This document shows, one piece after another, positions 34,224-41,985 of a DNA stretch of 64,000 nt. Positions within the stretch are counted from its first letter, which is position 1, and every line of letters begins with the position of its first letter. A program made the position numbers and the translations under genes. The DNA comes from Halosolutus amylolyticus (GTDB taxonomy: Archaea; Halobacteriota; Halobacteria; Halobacteriales; Natrialbaceae), in contig NZ_JALIQP010000004.1 in the NCBI RefSeq assembly GCF_023566055.1, positions 310,001 through 374,000 of the forward strand. The letters are read 5' to 3'. The notes under the pieces are model-generated. The model worked only from the letters and a program-made list of their open reading frames with translations. It was not told where the DNA came from and did not search any database.

Positions 34224-34859
34224 ATGGCACAGCCACGAATCCTCATCCTGGGTGCACCCGGGGCGGGCAAAGGGACACAGAGCCAGAAGATCACCGAGGA
34301 GTTCGGCGTCGATCACGTCACCACCGGCGACGCGCTCCGCGCGAACAAGGACATGGACATCTCCGACATGGACACGGAGTACGACACCCCACGCGAGTAC
34401 ATGGACCAGGGCGAACTGGTCCCCGACGCGGTCGTCAACGCGATCGTCGACGAGGCGCTCTCGCAGGCGGACGGCTTCGTCCTGGACGGCTATCCGCGGA
34501 ACTTAGAGCAGGCCGAGGAACTCGACGACATGACCGATCTGGACGTCGTTCTCTACCTCGACGTGAGCGAGGAAGAACTCGTCCACCGACTCACGGGGCG
34601 CCGGATGGACCCCGAGACGGGCGACATCTACCACGTCGAGTACAACCCGCCCGAGGACCCCGAGGTCGAAGCGCGACTGGAACAGCGGGACGACGACACC
34701 GAAGAGACCGTCAAAGAGCGCCTGCGCGTGTACCGCGAGAACACCGAACCCGTCATCGAACACTACGAGGAACAGGGCGATCTGGAGCGCGTGGACGGCG
34801 AGCAGGCGCCCGACGAGGTCTGGGAAGACGTGAAGGCGACGATCGAGGACGCGGCGTAA
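34224..34859 (+). CDS. adk: adenylate kinase
   Basis: 211 residues. P-loop [10 protein letters not shown] (residues 8-17), [27 protein letters not shown], the LID start [17 protein letters not shown] and the C-terminal nucleotide contacts identify it. It interconverts 2 ADP with ATP and AMP. The bacterial-type LID lacks zinc cysteines. TATA-like TTCTTTAAG at about 34186-34193 gives a very short leader. In archaea adk commonly precedes the DUF106 gene; here 6.2 kb separate them. Confidence 0.97.
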
Positions 34860-34868
34860 GCTCCGCCG

Positions 34869-36362
34869 TTAGCTGTTTTTGACGTCGATCTCGTGGTGGG
34901 CGACGTTGAGGTAGGTTAGCTGTGGCGGCAGGTCGTACTCGTCCGGATAGAGCTCGACCGGTTCGTCTGCGAGATCCTCGTCGTGCGTAAAGTCGATACT
35001 TCCCCACCCACCCTGGAAGTGGGCCGATGATGCGACGACCGACCCCGTCAAATCGGGATTCGAAAGGAGACAGACCTGTTCGTCGCTACACTTGCCTTTC
35101 CCACCGAGCGGATTGGTTCCAGTCCAGTCGTCACTGGGGGCGTAGATCGTCCCGGTAAACGAGCCACCGTCGAACGCCACGGCCGTCTCGGACGTGCCGT
35201 ACACTTCCGTGTACGTCGCCGAGGTGCCACCCATATCGCCAGAGGAACTGAGATTCCCCGTGACGTAAATTTTCAGCGAGTGGTTCGTCCCCGTTGCGTT
35301 CTCGACGGACAGGCTGGACTGGGGATGGGCGAGTTCGACGTCGCCGTCGACCATGAGCGTCGCGTTTCCGTCTTCGAGATCGAACGTTACGTCTGTGGTA
35401 TCCTCGAGGAGTACCTCGTCAGCGAGGTAGGTCCCGTTCGTGTAGGTTTCGTTGCCATCGATCGAATCGACCTCCTCGACGTCGTCCGAGTACTCGCCGT
35501 TCTTCATCTCTTCGAGCATCGCTTCGATCACGTCGTCGAGTTCCGGCATCCGATCGTTCCGGACCTCTTCCTCGCCGAAATCGACGTTCCCCTGTTCGCC
35601 GGCCGGTTCCGAGAGCGTCACACCCGAGTCGAAGGCGTCGTCGATGTCGAGATAGCCGACTCTAATCGAAACCGTTCGATTCTCGTGATCGATGTCACGG
35701 ACGATAGTGTCGCCCGCTTCGCGCGTGAAGAAGCGTTCCCAGCCGCGGTAGTACTCGCTCTTGATCGTGATCCGGATATCGGCGTCTTCGACGACGTTCG
35801 AGTCCGCGTACACCGTCGTCCCGTCGTGATTGAACGAGATGTCGCCCGAGTCGAGTTCCGAGTCGCCGCTGACGGTCGTCACCGGCAAAGTGAGTGTTTC
35901 GGTCGTCGCATCGTAGTACATCGGCGGAACGGAGACGACGCGAGTCTCGTTACCCGTCTCGCTGAACACGGCCCCGGCCTCGTAGGCGATCGTGCTTCCG
36001 CCGTCTCCCTCCCACTCGATCGTGCCGACCGTCTCGTTTATCGGTTCGTCGAACCCCTCCGAGGAGACGTTGATCCACCCGGTTTCCGCTCTTGCGACCG
36101 CCCCGCGTTCACCGGCATCGAGATCCATCGAGTGACTCACGTCGTTGTCGGTCCACGCCGAACCCATCTTCTGGCTCAGTTCGACGAACACCTGTTCGAC
36201 TCGCTCTTCTTCCGTCTGGGCTTCCGTGCTCGTCAGCACGTCGCCCGCCACGAGAAAGAGGGCAGCACTGGTAACCGCGACCATCCCGACCAACAGGACG
36301 ATCCCGATCATCGCCGACTGGCCCCGATCGGCGGATCCCGCTCCTCGTCGATCCCTGCTCAT
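34869..36362 (-). CDS. large pilin-like surface protein (DUF7289 type), first paralogue
   Basis: 497 residues from the ATG at 36362; an upstream in-frame start adds nine residues but would place the pilin motif further in. DRGQSAMIGIVLLVGMVAVTSAALFLVAG is a class III signal: the expected prepilin peptidase (PibD) cut is after RG, leaving an N-terminal hydrophobic helix. The long ectodomain is rich in D, E, T and S and shares three blocks with the next two genes: GTIEWEGDGG...AYEAGAVFSE, IKSEYYRGWERFF, and a C-terminal GTIYAPSDDW...GSVVASSAHFQGGWGSIDFTHDEDL followed by LTYLNVAHHEI. The third block resembles the C-terminal repeat of bacterial PilX-like proteins (DUF7305). A minor pilin or adhesin is likely. 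Confidence 0.75.
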   Translation of the reverse strand: MSRDRRGAGSADRGQSAMIGIVLLVGMVAVTSAALFLVAGDVLTSTEAQTEEERVEQVFVELSQKMGSAWTDNDVSHSMDLDAGERGAVARAETGWINVSSEGFDEPINETVGTIEWEGDGGSTIAYEAGAVFSETGNETRVVSVPPMYYDATTETLTLPVTTVSGDSELDSGDISFNHDGTTVYADSNVVEDADIRITIKSEYYRGWERFFTREAGDTIVRDIDHENRTVSIRVGYLDIDDAFDSGVTLSEPAGEQGNVDFGEEEVRNDRMPELDDVIEAMLEEMKNGEYSDDVEEVDSIDGNETYTNGTYLADEVLLEDTTDVTFDLEDGNATLMVDGDVELAHPQSSLSVENATGTNHSLKIYVTGNLSSSGDMGGTSATYTEVYGTSETAVAFDGGSFTGTIYAPSDDWTGTNPLGGKGKCSDEQVCLLSNPDLTGSVVASSAHFQGGWGSIDFTHDEDLADEPVELYPDEYDLPPQLTYLNVAHHEIDVKNS

Positions 36363-36373
36363 ACACTCCAACG

Positions 36374-36388
36374 TGATAGTTACTATCA
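36374..36388. promoter_or_regulatory. 15-bp palindrome before the first pilin-like gene
   Basis: TGATAGT-T-ACTATCA, 12 bp before the start codon and overlapping a TATA-like TATTATG on the minus strand. A stronger-looking TATATAAATAAA lies further upstream at about 36424-36436. If the nearer box is used, the palindrome would be a repressor site. Confidence 0.4.
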
Positions 36389-36654
36389 TAATACAGTCGA
36401 TCGATCACGTAGTTTTGAACAGTTTATTTATATAGCGAATGGGAAGATTATTACATATCGGGGAAGTGGAATCTGGATAACTGGTTGGACATTCAACCCG
36501 ACTTTTCGTCCGGTGAGATACCGGAACGCGTTCCGTCCGCGAGCCGGCCTCTCGATCGGCTGGTGGGAACGACTACTGAAGAGTGACGACGAACGAAAAG
36601 CCGAACACGAGATCACGCCTCGAGTGCGAGACGCCAATTCCGTCGCGAACCGCC

Positions 36655-38148
36655 TCAGTTGTCGATTTCGAGCCCGTACTTCACCACGTTGAGGTACGTA
36701 ATCCGGGGTGGGAGGTGACCGCCGTCTTCCATTCTCGGTTCGAAAGAGTCGTCGAGACTGTCGTCGTGCCAGATCTTACTGTTCCCACCGCTGATGTCCA
36801 CGTCCGAGACGACGACCGAGCCATAGATGTCTGCAGTCCCTCCGATGGATTCCACCGATCCGCCCGGGGCATAAACAATCCCCTCGTAGTAATCGTTATC
36901 ACTCAGCGTCATTTTGAAGTCCGATGTTCCGTACACTTGCAGGTATCTGGAATTGATATTATCCGTCTCTGGTTCGTTACCGACTCCTGGCTTGTAAGCA
37001 GATTCGGCTACATACAGGTGACTGTCCAAATCCAGATCGCCATTGGTGTATATCTGCACCTCGTTTCCGTCGTCTTCCCATCCATTGACCCAGACGTCTT
37101 CGGTTACGTCGATTGATCCGTTGACGACGATTGTCACGTTTCCATTCGACACGTTGATCGTCTGCATATCGTATTTGTCCGTATCGAGGTCGCCGTCCAC
37201 GTAGTATTTCCCCGCGGAGAGCTCCGATTCGTCCTCGGGAAGTTTGTCGTAGTTCGCTGCCGCCTCGTCAATCGTCGCTTCGATCTTTTCGTCGATCGGT
37301 TCGATAGAGACGTCCTCGCCGTACACGACGTCACCCTCGATGCCAGCGTTTTTGTTGCTCGGTTCCTTCGGTTCCGTTTCGGAGACCACGGCGTTCTCGA
37401 ATACGGCCTCGACATCGATACGGCCGAGTTCGACTTCGACGTAGCCGTGGGTCTCGTTCAGTTTGCCGTACTCCCGGATCGGATCGCCTTCGTCTCCGAC
37501 TGCCTGCTCGAAGTACTGCTTCCAGCCGATGTAGTACTGGCTCGTCACGTTGATCTTGACCGTCTCGCTTTCGATCGTGTTCGGACTGTTGATCCGCTCG
37601 GTGTCCGTCCGGCGAAGGGTGACGTCGCCGGAGCCGAGTTCTCCCTCCTCATCGACTTCGACGACCGGGAACGAGAGCGTCTGGTCCTCGTAGTGGATTG
37701 GCGGTGCCGATTTGACCTGCGTCTGGTCCATCGTCTCGCGGAAGACGCCGCCCGCCTGATACGCAATTTTGGTTCCGTCTTCCGCCTCGTACTCGATCGC
37801 ACCGATCGAGATGTTTTCGTCGAAGTCGTCGCCCCGGATGTGGATGTTCCCGGTGTTGGTCATCACGATGGCGCCACTGTCCCCGACGTCCAGGTCCATC
37901 GAACGAGAGACGTTTTCGTTCGTGGCCGTCGTCGTCGCCATCTGATGGCTCAATTCGACGAATCCCTGTTCGACGCGCTCTTTCTCGGATTGCTGTTCCG
38001 CACTGGTGATCGCCTCGCCCCCGACGAGAAAGATCCCGACACTGACGACCGCGACCATCCCGATCAACAACACGATCCCCAGCAGTGCTGCCTGCCCCCG
38101 ATCGGGTGTCGCCGAACCGGTGTCGTCGCCCTTGCAACGGGACTCCAT
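36655..38148 (-). CDS. large pilin-like surface protein (DUF7289 type), second paralogue
   Basis: 497 residues. DRGQAALLGIVLLIGMVAVVSVGIFLVGGE, with the RG processing site at residues 17-18, is the class III signal. The next segment (VEQGFVELSHQMATTTATNENVSRSMDLDVGDSG) aligns closely with the first paralogue (VEQVFVELSQKMGSAWTDNDVSHSMDLDAGERG), so the two arose by tandem duplication. The C-terminal GIVYAPGGSVESIGGTADIYGSVVVSDVDISGGNSKIWHDDSL and ITYLNVVKYGLEIDN repeat the shared end block. Base composition is less GC-rich than flanking genes. It would be exported and left in, or assembled from, the membrane as a pilin-like subunit. Confidence 0.75.
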   Translation of the reverse strand: MESRCKGDDTGSATPDRGQAALLGIVLLIGMVAVVSVGIFLVGGEAITSAEQQSEKERVEQGFVELSHQMATTTATNENVSRSMDLDVGDSGAIVMTNTGNIHIRGDDFDENISIGAIEYEAEDGTKIAYQAGGVFRETMDQTQVKSAPPIHYEDQTLSFPVVEVDEEGELGSGDVTLRRTDTERINSPNTIESETVKINVTSQYYIGWKQYFEQAVGDEGDPIREYGKLNETHGYVEVELGRIDVEAVFENAVVSETEPKEPSNKNAGIEGDVVYGEDVSIEPIDEKIEATIDEAAANYDKLPEDESELSAGKYYVDGDLDTDKYDMQTINVSNGNVTIVVNGSIDVTEDVWVNGWEDDGNEVQIYTNGDLDLDSHLYVAESAYKPGVGNEPETDNINSRYLQVYGTSDFKMTLSDNDYYEGIVYAPGGSVESIGGTADIYGSVVVSDVDISGGNSKIWHDDSLDDSFEPRMEDGGHLPPRITYLNVVKYGLEIDN

Positions 38149-38412
38149 ACCCGCCTCACAGATACTATCCCTATTAAGACGGTCGACCTATCAAACAATT
38201 CAGGATAGTTTATATTTCGGCTCCGGATCGAGATAATTGGGGGACGGCAACCGGTTCGTCCCGTAAACAGTTGCTACGAGTGACATAGTTTGTCCGACCG
38301 CTGAAACCGGTTGCCGCGCAAGCGGGACCGTGGGGGAAGCAAACCGGGACACGCCGCGAACTATCGTTCGAGAGAGCCGTGTCGATCGCCGATTCATCCG
38401 GACTACTCTAAA

Positions 38413-38479
38413 TCAGTGCCGGTGTAACCGCGATCGTCCTGCGGTTCCACCGGTAACTCGGTACACCAGACCGTATCAG
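38413..38479. repeat. dispersed hairpin element, family 2, copy with inverted loop
   Basis: AACCGC (38426-38431) / GCGGTT (38441-38446) around GATCGTCCT, then the arm ACCGGTAACTCGGTACACCAGACCGTATCAG. Aligned by its arm to copy 1 at 2404-2489, it runs on the opposite strand, while the loop keeps the same plus-strand orientation: the loop is flipped relative to the arm. The end GTATCAG holds the TGA stop (38476-38478) of the vWA gene. Confidence 0.7.
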
Positions 38480-40887
38480 TCCTCGATCACGACGTTCTGT
38501 TCGTCGATGTCGATCACGTAGTCGCTCGACGTGTTCGAGGAATCGGGTGCCGATCCGACGTCGAAACTGACGTCGGAGTCCGCAGTTACGTCTTCCGCGA
38601 TGTCTTCGAAGACGTCGTCGAGTTCGTCAGCGTTGTCGACGTTGACGTTTTCGCCACCGGTCTCGTCAGCCACGTACTCGAGGAGTTCTTCGTCGAGATC
38701 GTCGAACCCGAGCCCGATCGTGTAGATCGTCACGTCGAGATCGTTGGCATCGTGTTTTGCCAGATTCCTGGTTTTGGCGTCGTAGCTGGGATGACTGTTT
38801 TTCCCGTCGCTCAGGAGGATCATGACGCGATCGTTGCCCTCGTCGGATTTGTCTCGGTAATCGTCCAGTGCGAGTTCCATTCCCGAAGCGATGTTTGTTC
38901 CTCCGTATTCGTTTGCGGTTACGTTGTCCTCAACGCTGACAAGATCGCTACTTAGTTCGTGCAAGGTTTGCGTCGGGCCCAAGAGATCGGGCGCTGCAAA
39001 CTCATAAACGCCGGCACGATCGCCATCCGATTCGTTTAGCATCCCGATGAAGTCCGTTGTCGCGTCGACGCGTTCGTGGTGGGGATCGTTCCACTCCATC
39101 GATCCCGATCGATCCAGGACGAACGTCACGTCCAGCGCGTTGCGGGAGCGTTCCTCGACGAGTTCGATCTCCCTGTTTGCCTCGGGGATCGGAACCGCCG
39201 TCCGGAGCGATCGATCGAACTGGACGTCGACGTCTCCGTCGAAGGTGGTTTCGCCGCCGATGGCCGCACCGGTGATTTCGACGTTATCGCCGACTTCGAG
39301 TTCACTCCCGGGAGCGTAGATCACGCCGTCGAAGTTGACTTCGTCTTCGTCCTCGATCGTGACCTTGGCATCGCTTCCTGCATAGATCCAGAGCGCATTG
39401 GCCCGATCGCCGTCCTCGATCGTCACGTTGCCGTCGATCGTGACGTCGTCGTTGGCGTAGATGTACGCGGAATCGTTTCCGTCGATTTCGAGGTCCGATA
39501 GCTCTACTGTTCCGTTGACGCCGGCGTGGACGTCGCCGCCGCTGGTATCGATCGCGTCGAGATCGGTCAGTTCGTCTCCGTAGTATAACCCGGCGTCGAT
39601 GTTGCTCTGAGACTCGACGTCCTCGGCGTCACCGTTGCTCTCGAGGTACTCGAGATCCCCGACCGCCGCGTCGAGTTCGTCGTCGATCGCGTCGACCGAC
39701 TCGAACGGGTCCGACATATTCGCGACGAGCACCTCTTCCTCGTCGCTCAGCCAGTAGACCGCCGTCTCACCGTCCTCGGTCGTGTTGATATACTCGTATC
39801 CACTGGGGGTATCGCCCTGTTCGAGGTCCGCAGCGTACGCGATCTGCGAGACGATCGGGTTCGCATCGTCGTCCACCCTGGTGAGTTCGTCGTTGATAAC
39901 GGGAATGCCACTGATATCGGCGTCGTCGCCGAGCGAGAGGTCGTCGTCGACGACGAACAGGTCGTCGCTGATATTGGGATCGCCGTTGCGATCGTAGGCC
40001 GTCACGTTCGTGGTGACGTCGTGGTCGCCATCGACCCCCTCCGTGTGGAGGCCGCCGTACACCACCGGATCGATCCCGACGTGATCCGCGAACGCGTTGT
40101 CGCTGTCGATCGTCGCCACGACGGTAACGGACTCGGTTGCCGGATCGTGACAGACCTCGTTCTCGTCAGGGGCAGGGTTCTCGTCGCAGTCGACTGCGTC
40201 GAACTCCTCCTGCAGGAAGTCGTACCAGGCGTCGTGGTAACGCGTGTTCTCGACCGTCAGTTCGATCTCGTCGACGAAGCCGACTTCGTCGATCACGTCG
40301 CTGACGTTCGCCGAGTCCTCCACCGGCCGGTTGGTGACGGTGTGTTCGCCGCTCCCGGTAGTGCCCTGGAGGTTCGTCACCGAGAGGTCGATTCGTCCGA
40401 CCGGTTCGCCGTCGTCGTTCGTTTCGGTGTAGTACCGGATGTCCGGCTTCGAGACGAGCGTCGTTCCGCTGTCCCCTTCGCGCCAGATGCCGCCGGCCTG
40501 GTGACCGAATCGGTTGCCTGCGCTGTCCTCGTACCGGAGCGTCCCCATCGTGATGTCGTCCAGCGTTTTCGGCTCGCTGTACCCGTTGGAGACGCTGATC
40601 GTGATCGTGCTGTTGTTCGATAGTTCGTACTCACCGTCCTCCTCGAGATACACTGACCCGCTCGAGTCGCTGTCCACCAGCGCCGTCCGCAGATCGTGAT
40701 CGAACTGATGCATCAACTGTTCGCTTTGCTCGGCCGACGCCTGCGATTCGACCGAGTCGAGCGCCACCATGCCCGTAATTGCGATCAACGCGATCCCGAC
40801 GAAGACCATGCCGAACAACAGTACGAGCCCCACCTGTGGACTGAACCCGCGATCGTGACCGGACGGCTGGATCTCTATCCTCCCCAT
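38476..40887 (-). CDS. pilin-like surface protein with C-terminal von Willebrand A domain
   Basis: 803 residues from the ATG at 40887; an upstream start would place 18 polar and aromatic residues before the signal. DRGFSPQVGLVLLFGMVFVGIALIAITGMVAL is a class III prepilin-like N-terminus (cut after RG). The shared blocks are present: GTLRYEDSAGNRFGHQAGGIWRE, NTRYHDAWYDFLQ, and FDGVIYAPGSELEVGDNVEITGAAIGGETTFDGDVDVQFDRSL. Residues 584-770 form a vWA domain with a complete MIDAS: DRSGS (592-596), GGTN with T664 and LLSDGK with D694, so divalent-metal-dependent ligand binding is expected. A pilus-tip or cell-surface adhesin is the best reading. TATA-like GGATAAATTT lies about 35 bp upstream (minus strand). 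Confidence 0.8.
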   Translation of the reverse strand: MGRIEIQPSGHDRGFSPQVGLVLLFGMVFVGIALIAITGMVALDSVESQASAEQSEQLMHQFDHDLRTALVDSDSSGSVYLEEDGEYELSNNSTITISVSNGYSEPKTLDDITMGTLRYEDSAGNRFGHQAGGIWREGDSGTTLVSKPDIRYYTETNDDGEPVGRIDLSVTNLQGTTGSGEHTVTNRPVEDSANVSDVIDEVGFVDEIELTVENTRYHDAWYDFLQEEFDAVDCDENPAPDENEVCHDPATESVTVVATIDSDNAFADHVGIDPVVYGGLHTEGVDGDHDVTTNVTAYDRNGDPNISDDLFVVDDDLSLGDDADISGIPVINDELTRVDDDANPIVSQIAYAADLEQGDTPSGYEYINTTEDGETAVYWLSDEEEVLVANMSDPFESVDAIDDELDAAVGDLEYLESNGDAEDVESQSNIDAGLYYGDELTDLDAIDTSGGDVHAGVNGTVELSDLEIDGNDSAYIYANDDVTIDGNVTIEDGDRANALWIYAGSDAKVTIEDEDEVNFDGVIYAPGSELEVGDNVEITGAAIGGETTFDGDVDVQFDRSLRTAVPIPEANREIELVEERSRNALDVTFVLDRSGSMEWNDPHHERVDATTDFIGMLNESDGDRAGVYEFAAPDLLGPTQTLHELSSDLVSVEDNVTANEYGGTNIASGMELALDDYRDKSDEGNDRVMILLSDGKNSHPSYDAKTRNLAKHDANDLDVTIYTIGLGFDDLDEELLEYVADETGGENVNVDNADELDDVFEDIAEDVTADSDVSFDVGSAPDSSNTSSDYVIDIDEQNVVIED

Positions 40888-41040: not shown

Positions 41041-41985
41041 ATGACGCGTACAGCCGAGAAGATCAACGCCCTCGTCAGCGAGGATTCCTCGATGGCAGCG
41101 GCCCTGGAGGCCATCCGCGATGAGGCCGACGAAAACGGCGGTGAGGTCGAGTGGGCCGACGTCCGCGACGACCTGACGAGCGGTCAGTGGGGCCGCCTGA
41201 TCGAGAAGGGAGTACTGGTCGACGGGGACGAGGGATTCGAGATCGCCGATCGCGAGGCCTTCGACGAGGCGCTCGACGGCGACGGCGACGGCGGTGCCGG
41301 CGTTCCCGACGTCGAGGTCGACGAAGACACGAGCTGGTCGCAGTGGGACAAGACCGCCGCCCTGGGCTCGGTGCTGCTGATGGTCGGCTACTGGCTCGAG
41401 TCCGTCCGGGACACGGTCGGGAGTACGATCGATCTGGTGCTCGGACCGCTGGATACGGCGCTACCGTTTTACGCCGTTATTCTCTCCGTCGCGTTGCTGA
41501 CGGGCCTGTACTCGACGTTGCTCCAGGCGAACCTGATGAACCCCGAGGTCATCGGCAAGTACCAGGAGCGCATGAAGGCGATGCAGGACAAGCAAAGCGA
41601 TATCAAGGAACGCAAAGAGGAGGCCGAAGAGCGCGGCGCGAGCGACGCCGAGATCGAACGCCTCGAAAGCGAACTCGAGAAAGCACGCGAAGAGCAGATG
41701 GAGGCGATGGCGGAGAACCTCGGGATGTTCAAAGAGCAGTTCCGGCCGATGGTCTGGATCATGCTGTTTACCATCCCGCTGTTCCTCTGGATGTACTGGA
41801 AAATCAACGTCGGCGGGGTCGGTAACTCGACGGTCGTCATGCCGATCGTCGGCGAGACGACCTGGCGGTCCGGGCTGGTCGGTCCGATGCAGGCGTGGAT
41901 CGTCTGGTACTTCCTCTGTTCGATGGGCTTTACCCAGCTGTTGCGCAAATCGCTGAACATCGACATGTCGCCGACCGGGGCGTAG
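41041..41985 (+). CDS. DUF106 membrane insertase-like protein (Oxa1/EMC3 superfamily)
   Basis: 314 residues. The C-terminal two thirds are the archaeal DUF106 fold: helix [28 protein letters not shown], a charged coiled coil [27 protein letters not shown]...[16 protein letters not shown], then [27 protein letters not shown] and a final helix [25 protein letters not shown]106 proteins are archaeal relatives of YidC/EMC3/Get1 and are thought to help membrane-protein insertion. The first 110 residues are an acidic cytosolic extension with a winged-helix-like feel. The usual position after secY and adk is conserved apart from the insertion. Confidence 0.9.

Follow-up and report, generated by a model that had tools for sequence, protein, structure and literature searches.

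Between adk and the gene for an EMC3/TMCO1-like DUF106 protein, the haloarchaeon Halosolutus amylolyticus (Natrialbaceae) carries three consecutive intact open reading frames (ORFs) on the minus strand, encoding proteins of 497, 497 and 803 amino acids (genes A, B and C). We analysed them within a window of 64,000 nucleotides (assembly GCF_023566055.1, contig NZ_JALIQP010000004.1, positions 310,001 to 374,000; coordinates below are those of the window unless another locus is named). With a probability of roughly 60%, we propose that A, B and C serve a euryarchaeal type IV pilus of the PilB4-like kind as modular minor pilins, probably placed at its tip and bearing interchangeable binding modules. 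The observations behind this proposal are the genes and their families, the signal motif, the predicted folds, the peptidase and ATPase genes of the genome, a genomic link of the family to a PilB/PilC operon and the turnover of the genes among relatives.

All three proteins matched the Pfam families DUF7289 (PF23960; 79, 83 and 70 bits for A, B and C vs a curated cut-off of 27) and DUF7305 (PF23981; 112, 114 and 102 bits, with the same cut-off), which confirms the shared ectodomain blocks that the original prediction had read from the letters of this DNA. Ahead of the hydrophobic helix each carries a class III-like motif, RG↓QS in A, RG↓QA in B and RG↓FS in C, and R[GA] before a strongly hydrophobic stretch is kept in nearly all relatives. 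Judged by sequence, the three N-termini are prepilin signals (a charged residue, G or A, then a hydrophobic helix), and the proteins, much larger than ordinary pilins as had been claimed, are predicted to be modular pilins of the PilB/ComZ kind, in which an extra module is placed on a pilin module. The features are as follows.

34869-36362, minus strand: gene A, DUF7289-DUF7305 modular pilin, 497 amino acids (ORF and Pfam)
35670-36326, minus strand: gene A, DUF7289, pilin helix and beta ectodomain (Pfam E 5e-22)
34965-35573, minus strand: gene A, DUF7305, predicted to form a beta-solenoid like that of ice-binding proteins (Pfam E 4e-32 and model)
36321-36326, minus strand: gene A, class III-like signal R-G, directly ahead of QSAMIGIVLLVGMVAV (sequence)
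36427-36434, minus strand: gene A, possible archaeal TATA box TATATAAA (read by eye)
36655-38148, minus strand: gene B, DUF7289-DUF7305 modular pilin, 497 amino acids (ORF and Pfam)
38095-38100, minus strand: gene B, class III-like signal R-G (sequence)
37489-38100, minus strand: gene B, DUF7289 (Pfam E 2e-23)
36748-37326, minus strand: gene B, DUF7305 (Pfam E 1e-32)
38209-38217, minus strand: gene B, possible TATA box AAATATAAA (read by eye)
38476-40887, minus strand: gene C, DUF7289-DUF7305-vWA modular pilin, 803 amino acids (ORF, Pfam and model)
40846-40851, minus strand: gene C, class III-like signal R-G (sequence)
40114-40851, minus strand: gene C, DUF7289 (Pfam E 4e-19)
39199-39702, minus strand: gene C, DUF7305 (Pfam E 4e-29; predicted local distance difference test score, pLDDT, mostly about 90 in the model)
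38605-39132, minus strand: gene C, vWA domain (Pfam VWA E 4e-14, residues 586-761; fold match)
39100-39114, minus strand: gene C, metal-ion-dependent adhesion site (MIDAS) motif DRSGS, residues 592-596 (sequence)
38896-38898 and 38806-38808, minus strand: gene C, remaining MIDAS ligands T664 and D694 (sequence)
34224-34859, plus strand: adk, flank
41041-41985, plus strand: EMC3/TMCO1-like DUF106 gene, flank

AlphaFold2 models of A and C, built on shallow alignments (6 and 16 sequences; mean pLDDT 65 and 75), both contain a continuous N-terminal helix of 50-56 residues (H13-68 in A, H20-69 in C), so that the pilin-like helix expected by the original prediction was recovered, although its first part is poorly determined (pLDDT <50 as far as residue 40 or so). 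In both models the helix is followed by a beta-rich head and the DUF7305 solenoid, to which C adds the vWA domain at residues 585-768. The solenoid of A resembles ice-binding proteins (Foldseek E 0.003; Z 10-12 at about 3 Å over 140-150 residues in a structural second look), and DUF7305 is thus predicted to be a beta-solenoid of the ice-binding type. Among the matches listed in this second look, the competence pilin ComZ was the sole pilin for A (Z 7.4, 4.6 Å, 177 residues, a middling Z when taken alone) and vWA-type chains were the only hits for C; one domain fills the match list of each protein, and the lists are hence uninformative on the pilin head. Sequence searches of the PDB gave no significant match for a profile of the A type and a match for the vWA part only of gene C. 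In the model of A, a lone C-terminal strand (484-495) comes after the solenoid and a low-confidence linker, and a similar amphipathic strand lies within a few residues of the C-terminus in the small founder protein of the family (described below), in the solenoid forms and in most vWA forms, a pattern that fits insertion of the module before the last strand.

ComZ of Thermus thermophilus is a DNA-binding tip pilin (PDB 6qvi; PMC6561018), whose solenoid lies between the penultimate and the last pilin strand and has FfIBP as its nearest relative (PMC6561018). The solenoids of ComZ and A share their nearest structural relatives, the ice-binding proteins (FfIBP, 4nu2). The differences are that A, B and C are archaeal, have no sequence similarity that we could find to ComZ, carry a smaller solenoid and belong to another pilus system; some DUF7289-DUF7305 members add vWA or other modules, and DNA binding, known for ComZ, would be putative in them. 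That A, B and C bind DNA or partner cells for gene exchange, as a ComZ-like receptor or a mating factor, is a thought encouraged by the natural mating known in haloarchaea. The fold match and an architecture similar to that of a DNA-binding tip pilin (PMC6561018) speak for it as well, but the three proteins are strongly acidic (20-24% D+E, 4-6% K+R), which is typical of halophiles and unlike a classical DNA binder, and a common fold shows no function, a caveat that the ComZ authors themselves made for ice-binding proteins (PMC6561018); we give this explanation very little probability.

The vWA domain of gene C matched 4fx5 with Z 20.0 (2.2 Å, 172 residues) and its MIDAS is complete (D592-S594-S596, T664, D694), as it is in nearly all relatives inspected; from the DxSxS, T and D ligands in a vWA fold, the domain carries a predicted metal site, and the intact MIDAS fused to a pilin, already read in the 803-residue member, is borne out. 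By our own match criterion, pilins with vWA occur in 36 of 125 genomes family-wide, at adk in 17 and elsewhere in 19. Among hits with a species name were those from Halovivax asiaticus (at adk), from four species of Natrialba, from Natrinema zhouii and from two Haloarchaeobius. Spread by plasmids was rejected, since on plasmids only the vWA part of C found matches. The pilin PilB of Streptococcus sanguinis, an adhesin modelled at the tip (PMC8179133), is likewise a type IV pilin grafted with a vWA domain with MIDAS, but it lacks a solenoid, places the vWA directly after a small pilin module and belongs to a bacterial type IVa pilus (PMC8179133). CpaL of Caulobacter crescentus, also modelled at the pilus tip (PMC12607857), is a minor pilin-like protein fused to a vWA domain with MIDAS and differs in its Tad pilus, its surface-sensing role and the absence of a solenoid. 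Of the analogies drawn originally, PilY1 is a vWA tip adhesin as C would be, yet a non-pilin subunit, and PilX, a minor pilin of bacterial type IVa pili, is likewise of the minor-pilin type; in structure, ComZ, streptococcal PilB and CpaL are closer than either.

The same comparison raises a different role, in which A, B and C form a priming complex of minor pilins whose solenoid and vWA domains serve assembly or surface sensing, not adhesion, a role suggested earlier for CpaL or for PilY1 with the minor pilins. Caulobacter cells that lack the vWA pilin CpaL have reduced piliation and altered surface sensing (PMC12607857), and the haloarchaeal paralogues are often grouped in twos and threes, but a copy number of 0-5, with several genomes having none at the locus, would be odd for an essential primer, and the variety of modules is high; we hold this role to be improbable.

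The link of the large pilins to a machine comes from their small relative. In the source genome the founder DUF7289 protein (249 amino acids) is encoded at the end of a row of five small genes for pilin-like proteins (DUF7287, DUF7288, DUF7261, DUF7266 and DUF7289; L097), which sit behind a T2SSF protein and a T2SSE ATPase of 1304 amino acids. According to Makarova 2016 (PMC4858521), the Haloferax PilB4 ATPase is extended at both its N- and its C-terminus by domains peculiar to Halobacteria, and on this ground we infer that the L097 ATPase and its machine are PilB4-like. In 47 of 49 genomes, a small DUF7289 gene has a T2SSE ATPase gene no more than 12 kb away, mostly at 5-8 kb. In other families a large DUF7289 pilin stands directly against the small one, convergent in nine cases (G039, G040, G043, G048, G049, G052, G055, G056, G057) and in tandem in three (G044, G046, G059), with no ATPase listed close by in G039 and G055; four loci inspected end to end (L099-L102) run from ATPase and PilC through the small pilins and DUF7289 to the convergent large pilin. 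Of all the observations, this adjacency to a PilB/PilC-pilin operon speaks most strongly for a role of the large pilins in that machine. Furthermore, the source genome has one prepilin peptidase gene (Peptidase_A24), and in Haloferax two relatively large pilins are co-regulated with PilB4-C4 (PMC4371748). As described in PMC4858521, arCOG02911 comprises predicted minor pilins of euryarchaeal type IV pili in PilB3- and PilB4-type systems, of variable length (250-550 amino acids), prone to duplication, FlaFind-positive and beta-rich. DUF7289 is probably the same family; no vWA fusion or solenoid is described for arCOG02911 in the text read. Genes for CheR and a transducer of the methyl-accepting chemotaxis protein type adjoin the PilB4-like operon in the source genome (L097:503-4143), and a CheR-like gene lies near a Haloarchaeobius vWA pilin (L084); the pili may be linked to chemosensory signalling.

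Several points weigh against the tip-pilin proposal. The models of the pilin head reach only middling confidence, and that of C shows disorder over the C-terminal 34 residues, so that a module set ahead of the final strand is suggested by the model of A but not by that of C. Moreover, the source genome encodes five T2SSE ATPases and A, B and C are beside none of them, which leaves their use of the PilB4-like machine to be argued by kinship only. A, B and C might instead be prepilin-peptidase substrates that are not built into filaments but kept at the cell surface as membrane-anchored adhesins or pseudopilins, as are the binding proteins with class III signals in other archaea. Very large ectodomains (ORFs of up to about 1,550 amino acids at adk-DUF106), the missing ATPase at the locus and the seemingly separate promoter of each gene, as judged by eye, would suit this, but the DUF7289 founder resides in PilB/PilC operons with large forms adjoining it in other families, and ComZ is a large solenoid pilin that works at the tip (PMC6561018). 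We regard permanent anchoring as unlikely.

As to the locus itself, gene A is convergent with adk at a spacing of 9 bp and has an alternative in-frame ATG at 36389 that would give 506 amino acids, gene C is divergent from the DUF106 gene, and cmk and truB follow beyond the latter. The gaps of 292 bp (A-B) and 327 bp (B-C), together with an AT-rich TATA-like stretch seen by eye 5' of each gene, suggest that the three are transcribed separately and not as one tight operon. A scan for bacterial sigma-70 promoters and terminators, which is ill-suited to archaea, remained at chance level. Over the N-terminal 190 nucleotides, A and B show 73% similarity, which is expected for paralogues.

Within the same family, at least one DUF7289 gene was found beside adk and/or DUF106 in 30 of 37 genomes (25 of 29 genera), adk and DUF106 being adjacent in the other seven; among the 30 occupied genomes adk and DUF106 are apart in three, and one has a contig end in the interval. 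Related intact ORFs at this site in many other genera rule out chance ORFs. The interruption of the adk-DUF106 junction noted originally is therefore real, but it is typical of the whole family and not special to the source genome; outside this family, a DUF7289 gene in the interval was seen only in G050. Occupied loci hold one to five DUF7289 genes, of which a short form (about 480-610 amino acids) usually adjoins adk, while long forms (ORFs of about 680-1550 amino acids) have a vWA domain, CARDB-, Glug- or bactofilin-like parts or no part that could be assigned. In a tree of 40 mostly short-form proteins, gene A clusters with the adk-side genes of two genomes of the same genus, G001 and G002 (support 1.0), and by this sequence comparison is vertically inherited within the genus (the G000, G001, G002 clade). 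Gene B is sister to the sole gene at the site in G033 (59% identity, support 1.0). The middle gene of G001 is not its orthologue and clusters with genes from G012, G013 and Halovivax (support 0.94), and G002 has only gene A. The trio is thus a snapshot of gain, loss and replacement. A fixed three-gene unit, as the original prediction had it, was rejected on the grounds of the copy number of 0-5, the tree and the vWA pilins, which in 19 of 36 genomes are found at sites other than adk; such independent, scattered occurrence counts against the trio and not against the pilin reading. A mobile element, a virus and an invertible switch were also considered and rejected, with no relatives in viral contigs or phage records and no long inverted repeats.

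Further arrangements were noted in passing. One locus (L051, G017 C22:71500-88300) has five DUF7289 pilins in a row from adk to DUF106, two of them with bactofilin-like parts, and at the adk-DUF106 site of another (L055:1755-5735) a DUF7289 protein of 1326 amino acids and the adjoining pilin have opposite orientations, which was not so in the other genomes inspected. A further large paralogue of 1075 amino acids (G000:C2:337031-338575, L068:1403-4630) combines DUF7289-DUF7305 with about 500 unassigned C-terminal residues and shares 39% identity with gene C in its N-terminal part. In the source genome, a DUF7289 protein of 1106 amino acids with Glug/CARDB-like parts (C2:1156980; L070:4903-8223 and L098), near an S26-like signal peptidase gene, is neighboured by genes for a small membrane protein, an AMP-ligase-like protein and a CARDB-type secreted protein; these resemble the neighbours of the Natrinema zhouii vWA pilin and partly those in Natrialba (L079, L081), and a module swap at this second site is possible.

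In the tip-pilin model, which is drawn by analogy with ComZ (PMC6561018), PilB (PMC8179133) and CpaL (PMC12607857) for processing, assembly in trans, tip position and adhesion to a ligand, prepilin peptidase would cleave at RG↓Q(S/A) or RG↓FS, and the hydrophobic helix would pack A, B and C into a filament through an ATPase/PilC pair encoded elsewhere. The DUF7289 beta domain would form the pilin head, and the DUF7305 solenoid, in C with the vWA domain and its metal site, would project as a binding module from between the head and the last C-terminal strand. Since the shaft would hardly have room for such bulky modules, A, B and C probably sit at the tip as a cap, where they could bind a surface, the glycoproteins of another cell or DNA. 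Several module types circulate at the adk locus, so that the binding of the pilus could be changed without changing the machine. We extend this, tentatively and at less than even odds, to a view of adk-DUF106 as a family-wide cassette site, where tip modules that can be exchanged are stored for a single pilus machine with its genes elsewhere, where gain, loss and replacement of single modular pilins would re-target the pilus and where gene C would unite on one pilin a solenoid like that of ComZ with a vWA/MIDAS adhesin.

Much of the background was already known: DUF7289 and DUF7305 are in Pfam, vWA pilins and solenoid pilins have each been described in bacteria, and duplicated minor pilins have been foreseen in archaea. 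In the open-access literature we found no mention of DUF7289 by name and no description of a solenoid with vWA on one archaeal pilin, of the tie to PilB4-like operons or of the adk-DUF106 module site; both Pfam families are without function, and the earlier statement that no function had been described is still correct. The DUF7289-DUF7305 pilins belong to a widespread, uncharacterised haloarchaeal family with ties to a conserved pilus machine and are probably an archaeal counterpart of bacterial modular pilins. Haloarchaea encode dozens of orphan pilins, and the findings bear on which archaeal pilins do the binding and on the purpose of the PilB4 pilus, offering named candidates, the DUF7289-DUF7305 pilins with vWA and without it, that gene order across families ties to one machine. 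The findings also suggest that archaea make broad use of modular tip pilins, a strategy known from bacteria, and they yield a prediction that is testable in any genetically tractable haloarchaeon with DUF7289-DUF7305 genes.

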